From the NCBI RefSeq assembly GCF_025602895.1, contig NW_026516280.1, forward strand, positions 1-64,000: DNA of 64,000 nucleotides, given 5' to 3'. This document shows, piece after piece, positions 6,341-61,917 of this stretch (positions are counted from its first letter, which is position 1; the number at the start of each line of letters is the position of its first letter). This DNA is from Polychytrium aggregatum. Taxonomy: Eukaryota > Chytridiomycota > Chytridiomycetes > Polychytriales. Both the position numbers and the translations under genes were made by a program. Below the pieces are notes generated by a model. The model was not told where the DNA came from. It saw only the letters and a program-made list of their open reading frames with translations, and searched no databases.

Positions 6341-6493
6341 CCTGGGTGTCCCTGTGTGAGGGAGGAAGACACAGGGCAAAGAGCATAATCGCCACAGGAC
6401 ATCGGCGAGGGGATAAAAAGGGGGGCCGATCAATGTCGCCTGATTTACACAAGACACGCAAGTCATTCGTGCGTGAAAGTGTCCCATTGGCGG
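6341..6493 (-). repeat. Copy of a palindrome-containing dispersed repeat
   Basis: On the minus strand this matches 52386-52584: both start GGGACACTTTCAC, share GATGACTTGCG or AATGACTTGCG, then a CCTCTGGCGATTTTGCTC-like segment, and end in the inverted repeat CCCTGTGT...ACACAGGG (here 6350-6376) followed by ACACCCAG. The copy directly abuts the right end of the element at 6496. It may be part of a larger or sibling element. Confidence 0.75.
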
Positions 6494-6495
6494 TA

Positions 6496-6771
6496 CACTG
6501 TATTCAGGGGGAAATGGGTGAAGACCGCCGGTCGCTCTCCAGTCTCCACAATCGACCTGCACACTAGTCTCGGAGTGCCAGCGGTGAATGGTGCTTTTGG
6601 ACACACTGAAGATGGTGGCGACCTTGTGCAAGCTGCCGAGCTGCGATGCGGGAATCGAGGGTGCTGTGTTTGGCCATGAATGCGATGAGTGGGTGGGTGT
6701 ATTCAGGTCACAGAAAAAAACCCCTGTCATGGCTCAAAACGGGGGTGTCCCGTTTCATTTTGGAAACGCGG
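6496..6771 (-). mobile_element. 276-bp deletion derivative of the Fanzor/mariner element (subfamily I)
   Basis: The left end at 6771 and the right end at 6496 are flanked by TA (6772-6773 and 6494-6495). Both ends resemble those of the full element at 52615-56111; the right end CACTGTATTCAG aligns with CACTTTATTCAG there. Inside, on the minus strand, is a piece encoding a helix-turn-helix like that of a Tc1/IS630 transposase (VATIFSVSKSTIHRWHSE). It is joined directly to the last codons of Fanzor; the segment encoding VCRSIVEIGERPAVFT in the full copy is nearly identical here. Everything between is missing, so it cannot move on its own. It lies 118 bp before the next start codon. Confidence 0.85.
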
Positions 6772-17268: not shown

Positions 17269-17527
17269 GCGATCGCATACCACACGCGAGGGATGCGCGG
17301 CCTTTGGAAACATGGCCACTTCCTTTCCCATAATTTTTGAACTATACTCAGATGCCCACTGATACCAGAGTCGCGCAGGACTTTAAGTGAAGGGGAGCAG
17401 GGCACCATAACTTCCCGCCAGACCAATGCACATTTGGAAGAGTGTCGCTCGGGGCAAGGCTCGGGAGTATTGGCTCTCTCGATGTGATCCGGAGCGGCCA
17501 AGCAGAGGACCACAGTGCGGCTTGATA

Positions 17528-17783
17528 CAGTCGGTCCAGAAAGAAACGGGACAGTTCCTTCCTGGCTTCAGATGTCTGAAACCCGCTGACTGACTGTAGG
17601 CCCCAGTGAGCAAGCTGTGAGATTGTTTCCTGTCTTCGTTGGCAATCGAGCGGTTTTGGTTGGATGGGAAGCATGGTCTTGAATACACCCGGTCGATCTC
17701 CTGTGGCGATGATCGACTGGCACACCGAGATCATGTTCCTGGCTGCATTGATGTCTCGATCCCACAGCGTATGGCAGCTTGCA
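17528..17783 (-). mobile_element. Truncated right end of Fanzor element, subfamily II
   Basis: The right terminus starts at 17528 after TA (17526-17527) with CAGTCGGTCCAGAAAGAAAC then GGGACAG, matching the 40176 copy. On the minus strand it keeps the codons for CHTLWDRDINAARNMISVC and TGDRPGVFKT, the RuvC-III end of Fanzor, then a tail with a hairpin at 17563-17582. Homology stops near 17783 and no left end is present. It lies about 200 bp upstream of the WDR24 start codon. Confidence 0.85.
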
Positions 17784-40158: not shown

Positions 40159-40175
40159 TGTTGCAATCGCCTGTA

Positions 40176-40301
40176 CAGTCGGTCCAGAAAGAAATGGGAC
40201 AGTCACTTTCTGGCTTCAGCGGCCTGCAGCCTACTGAACTTCCATAGGCCCAGCGGGCAGGCCGTGAGATTGTTTCCCGTCCTGGTTGGCAATCTCTTTG
40301 T
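40176..40301 (-). ncRNA. Candidate guide-scaffold RNA region of Fanzor subfamily II
   Basis: The 126 bases between the Fanzor stop codon and the right end are shared with the copies at 17528 and 60349. Each copy has a hairpin 35-43 bases from the right end; here it is 40212-40231 (GGCTTCAG-CGGC-CTGCAGCC). In Fanzor and TnpB systems the guide RNA scaffold comes from this end of the element. Transcription is inferred, not shown. Confidence 0.4.
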
Positions 40302-40727
40302 TTAGGTTGGTTTGGGAAGCACAGTCTTGAATACACCCGGTCGATCTCCTGTGGCGATGATCGACTGGCATACCGAGATCATGTTCCGTGAGGCATTGAT
40401 GTCTCGATCCCACAGCGTATGGCAGCTTGTACAGCTCCGGACAATGTGTGGTTTTTCGATATCAAGGTATTCGACCTTCTCGAGTCGCTTGGCTTCCGAC
40501 AATGTGAGCATACCTGGGATGTGTTGAACTCGTTCACCGAGCACACATGGATCTTGGGACTTGGTGTGGTGCTCATCCAGCGCATCTTGAGCTGGAAGCG
40601 ATTCCCACAATGGCGTCCTTGATTCAAATCACAGAATGATCATGGCCAGCGCGCGATTGCATTGGGTAACAAAATATTTGATCAATCGTCAAAATCACGG
40701 GTGTCCCGTTTTTTATTGGATTGACTG
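40176..40727 (-). mobile_element. 552-bp non-autonomous Fanzor/mariner element, subfamily II, with both ends
   Basis: A complete element bounded by TA on both sides (40174-40175 and 40728-40729). Terminal inverted repeats match at 20 of 27 positions; the left end reads CAGTCAATCCAATAAAAAAC then GGGACA on the minus strand. The first 95 bases after the left end match 52615-52710 of the full element. The interior fuses WMSTTPSPK directly to NEFNTSQVCSHC, skipping about 120 Fanzor residues and keeping the late Glu, zinc-finger and RuvC-III parts (LWDRDINASRNM) before a stop at 40304-40302. It is too deleted to encode an active nuclease. Confidence 0.92.
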
Positions 40728-41055
40728 TAATCGCACCGGATGAGCCAGGGCAGTGACAGCCAGCAGCCTACCGATGTCGCCCGGCAGTCACTCCAAGAAG
40801 AAACAGTATCCACGTTTGTGCAGAGATGACGGCGTTCGAAACGGGACCTGAATACACACGCCATGGCCAAACAGTATGCCCAAGGAGACCGAGGTCGTGC
40901 TCACAAGCAAACGGGATGCTGCCCTGTTCCAAGCGAGCATGTCGTCTATGATTGCATCTGCCCAATACGTCCATGGATTTGCACTCCGGGCGTCTCGGTG
41001 CATCCCTGTCCTTGCTCCCCTGGTCCCAGAGCAGCGTGCCTCGGACCTGTGCTTT

Positions 41056-52081: not shown

Positions 52082-52385
52082 GTGTGGGAACAGCGGAGCC
52101 AAAGATTTGTGCTGTTTGGATCTGGATGAAAATGCTTCAGTGAGGGAGGGTACGAGGCTCCAGCAAGAGCAGGCCGATATTTTCGCGCAATCGGTAAAGA
52201 AGGCAAGCGAAGAAAAGGTGCCGCTGAGCCTCTTCGGAATTACGGCTGGCCCTGGATGTGGCAGAGCGTAGGAAGAGAGAGGATCGGAGATTGATTGGAG
52301 ACCCACCCGAGGGGGGAATTCCAAGTGGCTCGTACAATCGGCCACTCGAAAGCTGAAAGCGGGGAAAGTCGGGGATTTGATTACA

Positions 52386-52584
52386 GAAACGGGACACTTT
52401 CACACACGGATGACTTGCGTGGGTTGTGTGGGTTGCTTGGTTGTGTGGGCTGTGTGGACGGTGTTGGTTGTGTGAATCGGACGACTTTGATGGCACCCAA
52501 AACCCTATATAATCCGCTCGCCGAGGTCCTCTGGCGATTTTGCTCTTTGCCCTGTGTCTCGCTTCCTCACACAGGGACACCCAG
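52386..52584 (+). repeat. Copy of a palindrome-containing dispersed repeat
   Basis: Matches the minus strand of 6341-6493. It begins ACGGGACACTTTCACACAC and ends with the inverted repeat CCCTGTGT (52550-52557) / ACACAGGG (52569-52576) plus ACACCCAG. The Fanzor element starts 30 bases downstream. Between the conserved ends is a TG-rich stretch that differs between copies. Confidence 0.75.
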
Positions 52585-52614
52585 CAGCACTATCGACGAG
52601 GCTTTGGGGTATTA

Positions 52615-52641
52615 CGGGCGATCCAATAAAAAACGGGACAC
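52615..52641 (+). repeat. Left terminal inverted repeat of the Fanzor transposon
   Basis: Begins CGGGCGATCCAATAAAAAAC then GGGACAC after TA. Positions 52615-52710 also match the left end of the 40176-40727 element. Confidence 0.88.
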
Positions 52642-52698
52642 CCGGGTTTTTGACCATTCATCGAATATTTTGTTACCCAATGTTATCGCGCGCTGGCC

Positions 52699-53388
52699 AT
52701 GACCATTCGCCACACAACCACTCTCCAGAGGAAAGTTTCACTCTCACTCTGCCACACTGCCATCCACCGAGCAGGTCTCTCACACAAGAGGGCAACACAC
52801 CTCTACAAGTCCAAGCGACTGGATGAGCGAGTGGCACAGTTCAGGGACCAAGTCCACTCCATCGATCCACGGCGGCTCGTTTTTGTCGATGAGACGGGGA
52901 TCAGGAGATCCATTTTCCCTCTTTACGGATACTCACCGAAGGGTGCTCCGCTTCGCCAGCGCAATCACATGAAGCACAAGTCTGTCTCGGCTGCATTTGC
53001 CATCAACCACTCTGGTGTGCTGCATCGCATGTACATCCCCACATCATTCAAGACACACTCGATGGTCGAGTTCTTTGAGCGAGCGAGCTTCCCAGACGAC
53101 TCTGTGATTGTGATGGACAATGTCAGCATGCACAAGACACGGGCTGTCCTGGACTGCATCGATCGCCGAGGGTGGTCAGTGATCTTCACCCCACCTGCTT
53201 CACCCGACTTCAATCCCATCGAGAACTTCTTTGGGATTGTGAAGCATCAGTACAGGAAGGCAGCAGCGCTGAATGCGTCCGAGGGGTTCAAGATCGGGAT
53301 GGTGACCCTGTTTGAGTCTGCCGTTCGGAGGGTGCTTCCGGATGTCTTCCCACGGCTGATTGAGCGAGCGATGCGCTTCTGGGGTTGA
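52699..53388 (+). pseudogene. Tc1/mariner (IS630-type) DD34E transposase, N-terminally truncated
   Basis: The frame encodes 229 residues; complete relatives usually have about 330-350. The catalytic triad is visible: Asp64 in VFVDETG, Asp140 in VIVMDNVSMHK and Glu175 in PDFNPIENFFG, with 34 residues between the last two. The HKSVSAAFAI strand also fits the RNase-H-like fold. The N-terminus starts inside the second DNA-binding part (CHTAIHRAGLSHKRAT). The first helix-turn-helix is missing from this copy, although a fragment of one survives in the 6496-6771 derivative. Terminal-repeat binding is therefore probably lost. Confidence 0.9.
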
Positions 53389-53640
53389 GCTCCCTCCAAT
53401 CAAGCCGCCATTTTCGCGTTCACATCCCTGGCTTGAACCTCTCGGCGATTTTTGAACAGGGTCGCTTCCCCAACCAGCCCGCAACGACGGGCTCCTGCTC
53501 TCGGGTATAAATGCCGCACCTTCGTCCTGCTGCTTTCTTCCCTCATCTCGCCTTGATCTGATCATCGCGCTATTGTACGATAAAAAAAAGTCTCTGCTCT
53601 GACCAGTACCACTGGCAGGCATCCAGCATCCTCTGCCCCC

Positions 53641-56013
53641 ATGCCTCCGAAGCGCAAGGGTGCCGGTGATGGCCAGCCTCGGCCACCCAGGCCCAAGAAA
53701 GCCAAGTCACAGTCGGAGCCTGTCTCTGGTTCGTATTCTGACCCCACGCATGCTTGGTCGTCTGTTGCTCCGTCGCTCACCACCACTGCTTCTGCAGATC
53801 CAATGGATGTCGATCCCACCGAGCCTGGTCCATCTACTTCCTCGAGTACCGGCAAGCGATGTCGCCAGTGCGATGGTACCGATCACGAGCGAAGCAACAC
53901 TAGCAAGTGTCCCAAATACCGGCCCCTCAAGAGCTCCGTCGTCCCACTCGTGGATGGAAGGTCATCCGCCCCTCAGTTCAGCTGCTTCAAGCAGACCATG
54001 GATGGCTGTTGTCTCAATCCCGCTCTCCGCGACAAGATCCAGGCCACCGTCGAGGCCATGACCCAGATCCAGTTCGAGGCATCCAGGCTGCTCAACCTGC
54101 ACATCCTCCGGTGCATCGAGCAGGATCTTCCCGTCCCCGTCATCTCCAAGCCCACCCCTGCTTTCATCCGCCAATGCTTCAAGATCGTCCAGGACGGTGC
54201 CCTCTCCCCGACCGGGGACAATGAGAAATACAACGAGCATCTGGTCGCTTCCTTTCGCGGCTACCAGACCTCTCGGCACGCAGACCTGCCTCCGGCCCCT
54301 CGTCTGCCTGATGGCACTCACAGTCAGCTTCTCACCCTGGCTGTCAATGCCTATGCCACCAACTGCACCACCCACCTCAACCTGGCCTACTGGCGACTCC
54401 TTCGCCGCTTCTGCGCTGCCGTCTTCCCAGCCAACAAGCACAAGCACGAAGCCATCGAGGCCTGTCTCGAGCTCTTTGAGAAACCAGGGCAGACTCCACC
54501 CAAGGCCGATCTCGAGTTCCTCTATCCAGACTTTGGCCACATCCTGGACGAGTTTCGGTACAGCAACGACCAGGACCGCTTCCGGGCCCTCCATCGCCTC
54601 TCACACCATGTGGGAATCCTCGCCCGAGACAAGATGGTCGACGATGTCCACAAGTGGATCGACTGTGACATGCCCGCCCTCCGAGTCACCGAGTTGCAGC
54701 GCCAGGCCAAGCTGGACGAGCTCACTACCCAAGGCATTCCCTCCGACGACAAGAGGTTCACCACGGCCAAGTCTGAGCTCGGCACCACCAAGTCCAAGAT
54801 CAACAAGCTGGCATCCAGACTCAAGTGGGCACTCAAGCAGCTCGCTCTGGACACTCCTCCGGCCGTGTGCACGATGGTCCCTCTGTGCACTGCAAGGGCC
54901 AAGTACATCAAGATTGACACGGCCACTCTCTGGGATCTCCTTGACACCGAACATCGTCTTGGACTCACCCGGGACAAGCTCAAGGAAGAAGGTGAGGACG
55001 GCATCAACAACCAGGATCGTCTCTGGCGTAGTTGCTTCAAGCTGCGTAGTTCCCTCTTCCAAGAGCGGGACGTGGACAAGAAGCTCTTCAACTACGAGAT
55101 CAGCACCGATGGCATTGGATGCACCATCGGCCTCGTCAAGTTTGTGCGTCGAACCGATCGCTCCGAGACCATCGAGCCTCCTCCGACTGCCGAGCAGCGC
55201 ATCCAAGCCCACATCGGCGACCCAGACCCCGATCGCACCACTTGGATTGGCATCGATCCTGGAGTCGGCTCCATCTTCACGGCGGTCATCCAAGCACCGG
55301 GCCACCAAGACGAGGTGGTCTCATTCTCCAATGGCCACTACCAGCAAATGTGTGGCCATACGTCCAATACCAAGTGGCACAATATCATGAAGTATCGACT
55401 CAGCATCGAGACCTGGATGTCGACCACCCCCTCGCCCAAGGTGCAGTCCTCGGAGGCCTTCAAGATCCATCTCACCCATGTCCTGCGACCGGAGCTGCGA
55501 GTGTAGCTCGACTTCCACCTTGGCAAGAAGGCCCGTCACCATCGATTCACAGGCCACAAGAGGCGCCAAGTGGCCGTCGACAAGATGTGCAAGGCCGTCC
55601 TGAAGCACGTCCCGATACGGACCGATGTGGTGATCGCCTTTGGCAATGCGTCATGGCGTCAAGGCAAGGGCTATGCATCCAGCCCTCGGAGGCAGCGGTT
55701 TGCTCAGTACTTTGAGCAGTTCGAGCACCACCGACGCCGTCCCAATCACCATCATGGAAGCGTCAAGGTGGCCTCGACGAACGAGTTCAACACCTCGCAA
55801 GTGTGCTCCAAGTGCCTGGAGCCAGTTCGGTTGGAAGGACTCGATGCGCCCAGTGTTGCGAATTCCCACTTTGTCAGGAGCTGCAAGAATCCCAGCTGCC
55901 GGACAGTGTGGAATCGCGACGTCAATGCGGCGCGCAACATGATCATAGTGTGCAGGTCGATTGTGGAGATCGGAGAGCGACCGGCGGTCTTCACTCGGAG
56001 GCTGCCAAAGTGA
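53641..56013 (+). pseudogene. Fanzor nuclease (eukaryotic TnpB-like RNA-guided endonuclease) with one in-frame TAG
   Basis: A single frame of 790 codons plus stop, interrupted only by TAG at 55504-55506 (codon 622). The first 70 residues are basic and Ser/Pro-rich (KRKGAGDGQPRPPRPKKAK, nuclear-signal-like). A zinc-knuckle-like CX2CX4HX7C follows (Cys74, Cys77, His82, Cys90). A helical recognition region spans about residues 110-530. RuvC-I Asp539 is in WIGIDPGVGSIF. The Glu of the TnpB position is absent (VVIAFGNAS), but the Fanzor-type alternative Glu715 is in NEFNTSQVC. Zinc Cys722, Cys725, Cys748 and Cys753 follow, and RuvC-III Asp760 is in RDVNAARN. The TAG separates RuvC-I from the rest, so this copy is probably inactive unless it is read through, spliced out or miscalled. 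Confidence 0.93.
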
Positions 56014-56111
56014 TCTGTTTTATTTCTTGTGGCTTTGCTTGACGCAAGCACAGCACATACTACATGTTCATGGAAACGGCTATGCTGTCCCGTTTTTTTC
56101 TGAATAAAGTG
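56014..56111 (+). ncRNA. Candidate guide-scaffold RNA end of Fanzor subfamily I
   Basis: The 98 bases from the Fanzor stop to the right terminus contain a perfect 6-bp hairpin TGCTTG-ACG-CAAGCA at 56036-56050. Fanzor and TnpB guide scaffolds are known to overlap the 3' part of the gene and this end. The sequence differs from subfamily II, but the hairpin position is comparable. RNA production is inferred. Confidence 0.35.
56085..56111 (-). repeat. Right terminal inverted repeat of the Fanzor transposon
   Basis: Read inward from TA it is CACTTTATTCAGAAAAAAAC then GGGACAG. It aligns with the right ends at 6496 and 40176. Confidence 0.88.
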
Positions 56112-56553
56112 TAGAGTTGCAGCGGCCGCATGGGCCAGTGGTGCTGGCGGCGGGTCCATTACAGCGCATCGAATAGGCAATCAGACACCATTTCCCTGGG
56201 ACAAACCACTCTGCACATGGATCAAATCGCACTCGGCCAACAACGGCCAAGGCCACATCATCTCATAGAGTCAGTCCAAGACTTGCAATACCGCTGCGGT
56301 CATGTCGGTCTGGGTGGTTTTCGCCTTTGCTCCGCGCCTCATGGCCCACGCCACCGCGGCTGGTGTCGCACCAGCCCACTCGCGGCTGTTTTGGTCACCT
56401 GCCTTTGCGCTCTTGCCATGCCCAAGACCTGCATCCTCCGCCCACACCTCTGCCCTGTTTCGTCGTCCATCCCGCTCTCTCCAGCCCCCATCGGCACCGT
56501 CTCATATCCCTCCCCCTCATTTCTCACCATCACACTCCCTCCAGCGATCTGCC
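56112..56553. other. Intergenic region
   Basis: Upstream region of the secreted protein gene at 56554. No other feature is recognised. Confidence 0.5.
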
Positions 56554-60348: not shown

Positions 60349-60555
60349 CAGTTGTTCCAGGAAAATACTGGGGCAGTGTCATTTTTTCTCTGGCACCAGA
60401 GGCCTGAAGCCTGCTGAACTCCCGTAGACCCCCCCCCTCGTAGGCAAGCCGTGCGATTGATTCCGGTCTTCGTTGGCAATGGCTTTGCTTCCGTTGGTTT
60501 CGAGAGCACAATCTTGAATACACCCGGTCGATCTCCTGTGGCAATGATCGACGGA
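60349..60555 (-). mobile_element. Truncated right end of Fanzor element, subfamily II (diverged)
   Basis: Starts after TA (60347-60348) with CAGTTGTTCCAGGAAAATAC, a diverged right terminus. On the minus strand it keeps the tail and hairpin (60392-60411) and the codons for IIATGDRPGVFK. Homology ends near 60555. It is the most diverged of the three subfamily II copies. Confidence 0.8.
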
Positions 60556-61917
60556 CACGGTGCCTCGATACGGCAGGTTGGTGGATGCATTCGACTCCTT
60601 GGACCTCCCGAGTCACTTGGCCTCCATTATCCTTGGGTGCACTGTTCGGTTATGGTGGATGAGTGGTGCACCCAGGACCCAGAAAGAAACGGCGGCCCTG
60701 GCTCGGACAGCGTGTCCCGCTTCGCTTTGGGATCGGCGTAAACTCGGTCGTCACAAACTCGACTGTCATAAGCTCGGTCGTCATGAGCAATGCCGAGCGT
60801 GCCGGCTGCATTGTCGCTGTTCTGGGCCATGGTGCGTGCTTTGTGCCGACAGCTGCCGTGCTCCCACCGTCCTGCCGGCACTGTTGGCGATTTGGGCAGC
60901 AGCGAGGCAGCAGCGGGCATCCTTGCGCCTGGCAACCACATGTGCGGTGGCGGGGCGATGTTGATCAGCCAGGAGGCGACGGAAGCCCAGATGCGGTTGA
61001 CATTCGACACAATCCCCTGCTTCATCCAATCAAACTTGCGTAAACAATGATAGAGACCCAACGTCGCCGTGGATCCCATTATTGCTCTGTATGCAGTTGT
61101 GCTGCCGCTCGCTACAATGCCATTGAGCGCCGTTCGCTGCTTGCTGTTGGTCCTCACTCGTCCGCCCCTCTGATCTTGCGCTGCTCTGTGATTCGGGGGC
61201 CTACGCAAATAAACACAATAGATCACTTCGATCGACCAGCGTGCTGGGTGAATGTGGGCGAGGCTTTCTCTGCTCTGCTTTCCCATCCCCGCTCCGTCGT
61301 CGCATCCGGATTTTGCAGCCACAGGCCAGAGTCCATACCAGGACCAGCACTGGCTATCAGTATCGATCCTTGTTTCTCATCAGCCCGCGGCTCCCTCGGC
61401 CTGTCCTGTCGCCAATACCGTGAGCGAGTACTTTTCTGGTCACCATCAGGTTTGTGGGTGTCTCTTGCCGACGGAGGGTGGAGGCTGCACCGCCCAGGAC
61501 GGGCTTGGTGATGCGGCTGGAGCCTATGTTTACCATAGGCACCGTCGCTGTTGCCGCACCGAGGTTGTTGTTGTCCGTCGACAAACCACTGCGGCTGGGC
61601 CGCTGCCTCGCCCAGAGCTCGTTGGCTCAACCGAACGAATGAGTATTCAATGTACCGTCGCCTTACTCAACGGCCTGCCTTGATCTCCACCCTGCCCGGC
61701 TCCCTCCCATCCCCCGCCAGCACCCGCACTGGATAGCGAAGCGGTTTTGCCTCCCCCTCCCTGCCTCGCCTGCACTGTCCTCGACCAAGTACTTTGACAC
61801 CAAGCATCGCTCATCGGGCCTGTCCATATCCAACCTCGGTTCTCCGCGTGTCCGCACAGCAATTCTCGATCTGCGACTGCGATCCAAGTCGGCCCCACAT
61901 CCTGTCAGCTCAAAGCG
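60556..61917. other. Intergenic region of 1.4 kb upstream of the kinase gene
   Basis: No supported gene, repeat or RNA is seen. Open frames on both strands here lack domains and mostly mirror one another. Confidence 0.5.

Follow-up and report, generated by a model that had tools for sequence, protein, structure and literature searches.

Junction scars and a left-flank TTA rule suggest RNA-guided homing by a Fanzor1-bearing mariner transposon of Polychytrium aggregatum

A 64,000-nucleotide stretch of the genome of the chytrid Polychytrium aggregatum (assembly GCF_025602895.1, contig NW_026516280.1, positions 1 to 64,000 of the forward strand; hereafter, the window) contains, at positions 52615 to 56111, a genuine TA-flanked Tc1/mariner element that carries a DD34E transposase and the nuclease Fanzor1. 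From the junctions of many copies of this element across the genome, we think it reasonably probable that a eukaryotic cut-and-paste transposon carries out RNA-guided homing, with Fanzor acting as the homing nuclease for its transposon. The observations on which this hypothesis draws are the anatomy of the element, a TTA rule at its left flank, a shift of that rule with the Fanzor half of the element, scars confined to left ends, and the pattern of diversity at the 3′ end.

The duplicated target TA stands at positions 52613 to 52614 and 56112 to 56113, as the preliminary description of the window had reported. Its claim of matching terminal repeats holds for AAAAACGGGACA, which is found exactly at both ends as a shared inner part (five matches in the window with at most one mismatch versus 0.17 expected), but not for the repeats as a whole, which are imperfect (19 of 28 bases identical). 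The left terminal inverted repeat (52615 to 52642, + strand; CGGGCGATCC... type) and the right one (56084 to 56111, +) have the core AAAAAACGGGACA; their good match is confined to the inner half, and the outer left bases differ among copies.

The assembly that contains the window comprises 64.7 Mb in 418 contigs. A genome-wide search for the element's ends, which the preliminary description had proposed, recovered, with up to two mismatches allowed, 480 left ends and 260 right ends, and none with a reversed-pattern control. Gene searches gave at least 150 hits for the transposase (497 candidates), at least 71 for the N-terminal part of Fanzor (554 candidates), and at least 150 for its C-terminal part (1,259 candidates), numbers that are unreliable as locus counts for single genes because they derive from the best-scored candidates of longer lists. 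When merged, the hits form at least 235 loci, and both genes lie at the expected spacing and strand in at least 96 of these; therefore, the pairing of Fanzor with the transposase is no chance neighborhood. Fanzor frames of 700 or more amino acids were found at 107 of the 150 C-terminal hits listed.

To describe the junctions, we inspected 122 end pairs (30 loci, three sets of 39, 40, and 5 pairs, and 8 short copies). From these, 109 rows were entered, which correspond to 94 distinct loci after 15 repeats of a right flank were dropped. At 92 of the 94 loci, the left TA follows a T, the exceptions being L133 (ATA) and L130 (CTA), a 0.3-kb derivative. As a background, T precedes 13.5% of the TAs in the window. 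The base one position further out is A or T in 71 of the 94 loci. The rule is one-sided, since the first base of the right flank is A in just 19 of 94. At the right junction, the TA is present in 93 loci (L117 has TT), all of which read GTA, and a G precedes this dinucleotide in all 94. In the window copy, the left TTA, made up of the T and the duplicated TA, occupies positions 52612 to 52614 (+).

The 13 pairs left out had an end that was unmatched by the pattern or lay beyond the fetched stretch, or had no right TA. Six of them read TTA on inspection (L015, L029, L157, L187, L195, and L207), three read GTA or ATA and have no right TA (L163, L171, and L175), and four have no left end (L028, L035, L217, and L219). 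Genome-wide, the commonest left end, which is the consensus, is preceded by T in 172 of 178 cases. The six other cases include L163, L171, and L175 (two distinct loci, L171 and L175 being the same), which may not be normal insertions because their right TA is missing. Left ends of the CRGGCG type show two non-T cases genome-wide; of 13 such loci sampled, 12 have T.

The rule changes in a sister family (family B) that has another Fanzor. Over the left 1,006 nt, transposase included, its copy L125 is 96.8% identical to L011, our reference copy for the family of the window element (family A), and L125 is 97.6% identical to another family B copy, L126, over 3,654 nt. The Fanzor of L126 is 42% identical to that of the window, and the family B right end differs from the family A right end. 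Hence, it seems that Fanzor was swapped together with its 3′ end and the right end, as a single unit, next to an almost unchanged transposase. By pattern, the left TA of family B is preceded by T in 7 cases and by another base in 6 (Fisher test versus family A, P = 2e−5). We also inspected nine pairs plus L125 and L126 (L241 duplicates L126). Among these, the six distinct loci with both ends have three T, two C, and one G (P = 0.001); L125 (ATA), L231 = L233 (ATA), and L239 (TTA), which have no right end, were left out of these six. Because family B combines nearly the same transposase with another Fanzor and has T in three of six loci, the rule tracks the Fanzor half and resembles a target-adjacent motif (TAM) of this nuclease. 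An analogy is available in SPu-1 of Spizellomyces punctatus, where a conserved CA precedes the left end; together with the TA, this gives CATA, the TAM measured for SpuFz1 (PMC10432273). By this likeness, we suggest that TTA is the TAM of the family A Fanzor.

A second line of evidence comes from the bases just inside the left TTA. At 8 of the 94 loci (L010, L011, L012, L017, L030, L141, L181, and L193), 5 to 10 nt at this position repeat the right flank, x. Twenty thousand shuffles of the right flanks among loci produced on average 0.16 scarred loci and at most 3. Right ends are scarred in 0 of 94 loci versus 8 of 94 for left ends (P = 0.008), and five copies that were set aside for odd right ends (L029, L157, L163, L171, and L175) contain no copy of the left flank, as judged by eye. 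The switch from x to the element falls at one to five matching bases in seven of the eight scars (script); for L010, the count is six, by eye. Five of the eight keep the normal spacing, with the switch at two to five common bases, and the scars of L193 and L181 are two and three bases longer than normal, respectively. The L010 scar reads TTA-C-TA-x, as would be expected for a refilled excision footprint; L010 also totals 26 bases, but by way of a shorter A run. For four of the eight scars, the site recurs on a second contig (L011/L013; L012 and L193 at 100% identity; L181 at 96%).

Two other sorts of left end were considered as scars and rejected: L021 and L191 carry a common variant, CAGCGTATCCACC, which is unlike their flanks, and CGGGCG left ends occur at seven loci with differing flanks. 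Likewise, we rejected the T as a part of the element, given that the scars read TTA-x contiguously and that half of the complete family B loci have no T.

An exact right junction (TA and then the first base of x) implies a template in which the site was already occupied by the element. We infer that these are repair scars, left where Fanzor cut an empty TTA-target that was refilled from an element-bearing allele.

We propose the following course of events, in which the cutting, the omegaRNA, and the order of steps are our reconstruction from the junctions. The transposase would insert the element at a TA. An omegaRNA from the right end would take as its guide the host sequence to the right of each copy and would match the empty version of its own site, TTA-x. 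Fanzor, requiring TTA by its target, would cut empty alleles or re-closed excision sites, and the filled site would be spared, the right flank there being preceded by GTGTA, with G before the TA. A cut some 15 to 20 nt past the TTA would leave TTA and part of x on the left broken end and the remainder of x on the right one, and repair from the allele that holds the element would restore or copy it. On such a template, the right end would be fully matched and the left tail of x unmatched. Usually, the left broken end would be trimmed to TTA; occasionally, part of the tail would survive and be extended along the element from a few matching bases, producing a left-only scar. As the flank determines the register, such scars would mostly retain it. 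Cutting at the ends of the transposon would leave the left side with no x.

For comparison, SpuFz1 has a guide of 14 to 15 nt and cuts after bases 16 to 17 on one strand and 20 to 21 on the other (PMC10432273). For the window copy, the predicted guide of the omegaRNA is the right flank at positions 56114 to 56133 (+), its length being set by the SpuFz1 analogy.

The 3′ end of the element has the low diversity that an RNA scaffold might impose. Among 29 copies (the best Fanzor hits, L009 to L038, which make an unfair sample of gene decay), nucleotide diversity is 0.021 in the 100 nt past the Fanzor stop codon, versus 0.054 in the spacer that separates the two genes (53389 to 53640 in the window, +) and 0.069 at third codon positions. 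Within the last 50 Fanzor codons, third-position diversity is 0.019, near the lowest value (0.0175) of 69 sliding windows, versus 0.072 elsewhere in the gene. These diversities fit a guide RNA scaffold that overlaps the end of the gene, but the terminal repeat by itself could add constraint at the 3′ end. The fold of positions 55940 to 56113 exceeds chance only mildly (z-score of −2.0), and 5 of 200 shuffled sequences fold equally well. Based on low diversity and fold, we place the candidate omegaRNA scaffold at 55860 to 56113 (+), comprising the last Fanzor codons, the 3′ untranslated region, and the right end, with limits that are guessed.

Several observations weigh against homing by Fanzor. 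In family B, T is in excess over the background (7 of 13, P = 7e−4), which may mean that the preference for T is partly the transposase's, and the family gives only six two-ended loci. The entry of rows by a right-end pattern would favor unscarred right ends. Among the scarred loci, L141 belongs to a batch chosen in part for unusual left ends (leaving out its four distinct loci, scars number 7 of 90), and L017 is one base off the consensus. The surplus of left over right ends (480 versus 260) is accounted for only in part: the left end is common to this and other families, and among the first 100 left ends listed, 46 matched no merged locus. The ratios of nonsynonymous to synonymous substitution rates (dN/dS) in the 29 copies do not clearly differ between Fanzor and transposase (0.29 and 0.38, with overlapping intervals), and the intervals also overlap when copies with a deleted transposase are compared with whole ones. 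For 31 of the 94 loci, the joined flanks were searched, with 40 of 434 candidates scored, and no clean empty allele was found. Finally, template switching without any Fanzor could give similar scars.

In that search, a full-length match (82%) to the joined flanks of L022 was rejected as an empty site, being an adjacent unit of the tandem repeat that harbors L022. This copy (contig C346) lies within the repeat and has the ten bases AAGTGGTGTC on both of its sides, as either a scar or the repeat.

Template switching underlies the alternative in which the transposase accounts for everything: the left broken end, with its TTA, pairs with the TA of the right end, copies some of x, and then continues on the sister chromatid's copy of the element, while Fanzor is a passenger. 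Microhomology-mediated template switching around transposons with terminal inverted repeats is documented (PMC8277862), and the one to five matching bases at the switch in seven of eight scars agree with it. However, this course of events predicts that right ends be scarred equally, and none is scarred against eight left ends (the bias of row entry noted above applies to this comparison), nor does it explain why TTA is found on the left only and changes with the Fanzor. We consider it unlikely, yet the chief rival.

Still less probable, in our judgment, is a target preference of an asymmetrically bound transposase, which would favor TTA and sometimes make a longer duplication (7 to 12 bp) that costs the element its outermost left bases. 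All of the effects are indeed located at junctions, the two ends are non-identical (19 of 28 bases), which makes an asymmetric complex possible, and family B is T-rich as well. Yet, family B has nearly the same transposase and left end and reads CTA, CTA, and GTA in three of six loci. Moreover, in five of the eight scars the spacing is exactly normal and the bases match where x gives way to the element, neither of which a variable duplication would need. That Fanzor cutting serves another role, such as defense against related elements or removal of competitors, with the scars as by-products, is very improbable: right flanks that resemble other mariner-like ends (L030, L059, L099, L121, and a few others, by eye) would provide guides to other transposons, but the scars restore the element at its own site and the remaining right flanks listed show no mariner-like end, again by eye. 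As a separate observation, the right flank begins with, or soon enters, a mariner-like end (AAACGGGACA-type core, by eye) in L014, L030, L049, L059, L099, L119, and L121.

If RNA-guided homing does operate, its consequences may extend to the family as a whole. It is possible, although here we are more hesitant, that insertion sites obey the TAM of the nuclease and not the transposase, that empty or excised alleles are refilled from those that carry the element, that a swap of the Fanzor half resets the rule, and that the family, its copies trading short tracts, forms one gene pool kept by repair. Linkage among common variants in the 29 copies decays clearly over distance and is lost entirely within 15 to 30 bp in the Fanzor gene and within some 50 to 250 bp in the 1.27 kb at the left, where the transposase lies. 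Linkage equilibrium is thus found in these copies despite a divergence of about 4% and the Fanzor dN/dS of 0.29. Either very frequent exchange or gene conversion between copies or mixing in the assembly could be responsible, and we credit neither side. We rejected the distance-dependent loss of linkage as proof of gene conversion, since repeat copies mixed in the assembly could mimic it.

Both genes of the window copy are recognizable. The transposase open reading frame (52699 to 53388, +), identified by translation and profile match, matches DDE_3 (PF13358; E = 5.9e−24), and a count by eye on its translation puts 34 residues between D and E, in agreement with the DD34E type claimed for it. 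The Fanzor1 gene (53641 to 56013, +) matches the TNB zinc domain PF07282, a C4 zinc ribbon (E = 3.1e−10; 40.5 bits versus a cut-off of 26.3), and the residues predicted for its RuvC site are all present: D539 in GIDPG, E715 in NEFNTSQVC, and D760 in NRD, together with the zinc cysteines. A DPG motif and an alternative glutamate are named as a Fanzor signature (PMC10711439). The best chain with a solved structure is SpuFz1, a weak match over the C terminus alone (E = 0.3), and a single-sequence structure model of the C-terminal half has a mean predicted local distance difference test score of 31.5. We take E715, which adjoins the zinc ribbon, to be the alternative glutamate. Among proteins predicted from public genomes and metagenomes, no Fanzor homolog had E ≤ 0.001 (7,995 candidates scored), and six peptide patterns had no match in viral contigs.

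The preliminary description was correct that the two genes are paired within one TA-flanked element, but it overlooked that this copy is damaged. The Fanzor frame is interrupted by an in-frame TAG at 55504 to 55506 (codon 622), which must be read through to obtain the residue numbers 539, 715, and 760, and the N-terminal region of the transposase is shortened by a 243-nt deletion near its start relative to L011. Because of these two lesions, the window copy is not a complete gene pair. What appears to be the same insertion site is found on a second contig, C257, with an identical right flank; the transposase frame of that copy has 325 amino acids versus 244 in the window copy.

Copies that have lost either gene, which the preliminary description regarded as evidence against a single element, do occur. 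Short derivatives of 0.3 to 0.4 kb retain the same two ends, a bit of the 5′ region, and the 3′ end of Fanzor, and they look like internal deletions, not separate elements. At two sites, a 0.3-kb derivative (C156:29244-29637 and C246:75520-75914) apparently shares its location with a long copy (L012 on C223 and L023 on C398, respectively), which suggests internal deletion in place. A two-ended derivative of about 1.1 kb is represented by L131 (C9) and is also found on C13, C57 (two places), and C135; the flanks of L131 are those of a longer copy, L105 (C79), so at least part of this spread is duplication of the surrounding region. In addition, other PF07282 proteins, in frames of different length (224, 447, and 477 amino acids, among others), outscore those of families A and B and suggest further Fanzor or TnpB-like families in the genome.

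The several relatives that the preliminary description saw within the window are real repeats, but short relics and not whole elements. A comparison of repeats within the window places one near 6.3 to 6.8 kb and another at 17526 to 17781, the latter resembling the family B right end. A relic at 40174 to 40732, which also resembles the family B right end, apparently keeps both ends within 0.56 kb, and one at 60443 to 60557 repeats a piece shared with the relics at 17.5 and 40.2 kb. On the immediate left side of the element, positions 52381 to 52590 have an 82-nt repeat (87%) in common with 6342 to 6500 on the opposite strand, and a further mariner-like end, TTACAGAAACGGGACACTTTC, adjoins this repeat.

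The element itself belongs to a known kind, the mariner with Fanzor1. Mariner-borne Fanzor1 has been known since 2013 from PGv-1 and PUl-1, next to SPu-1, which is described as a Fanzor alone (Bao and Jurka, PMC3627910); the gene pairing that the preliminary description presented as the news was thus already on record. Like PGv-1 and PUl-1, the Polychytrium element combines Fanzor1 and a mariner transposase within TA-flanked, inverted ends. Unlike these and SPu-1, as far as PMC3627910 describes them, it offers hundreds of ends in a single genome, nearly one transposase paired with two Fanzors, and scars at the junctions. SPu-1 is a single open reading frame with no transposase, whereas the element here has one. 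With SpuFz1, it shares the Fanzor1 type, conserved bases before the left end, and a conserved 3′ end, where the guide RNA scaffold of SpuFz1 lies and our candidate is placed, but its TAM-like motif is TTA instead of CATA. The short gene-less derivatives are comparable to the ghost loci of Spizellomyces (PMC10432273). The novelty lies in the junction evidence. In the open-access literature searched, a scope that leaves most subscription papers outside, we found no report of Fanzor junction scars.

The closest functional parallel is the TnpB gene drive of IS200/IS605 elements in bacterial plasmids (PMC11870625). As we propose here for Fanzor, the insertion site programs the nuclease, which cuts DNA without the element; the TnpB drive belongs to prokaryotic IS200/605 elements, and the present case would concern a eukaryotic cut-and-paste DDE transposon. 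What role Fanzors have for their transposons is stated to be unknown in PMC10432273. The preliminary description had recommended this family as a means to study the nuclease's contribution to transposon persistence, and the junctions of many copies, which are invisible in one window, bear it out. Hundreds of ends, two Fanzors with one nearly shared transposase, and scars on the predicted cut side make the role of Fanzor testable, with a TAM predictable from the junctions (TTA for family A and a looser NTA for family B) and a repair route predictable from the scars. If our hypothesis is true, RNA-guided drive of the TnpB type would extend to eukaryotic cut-and-paste transposons.

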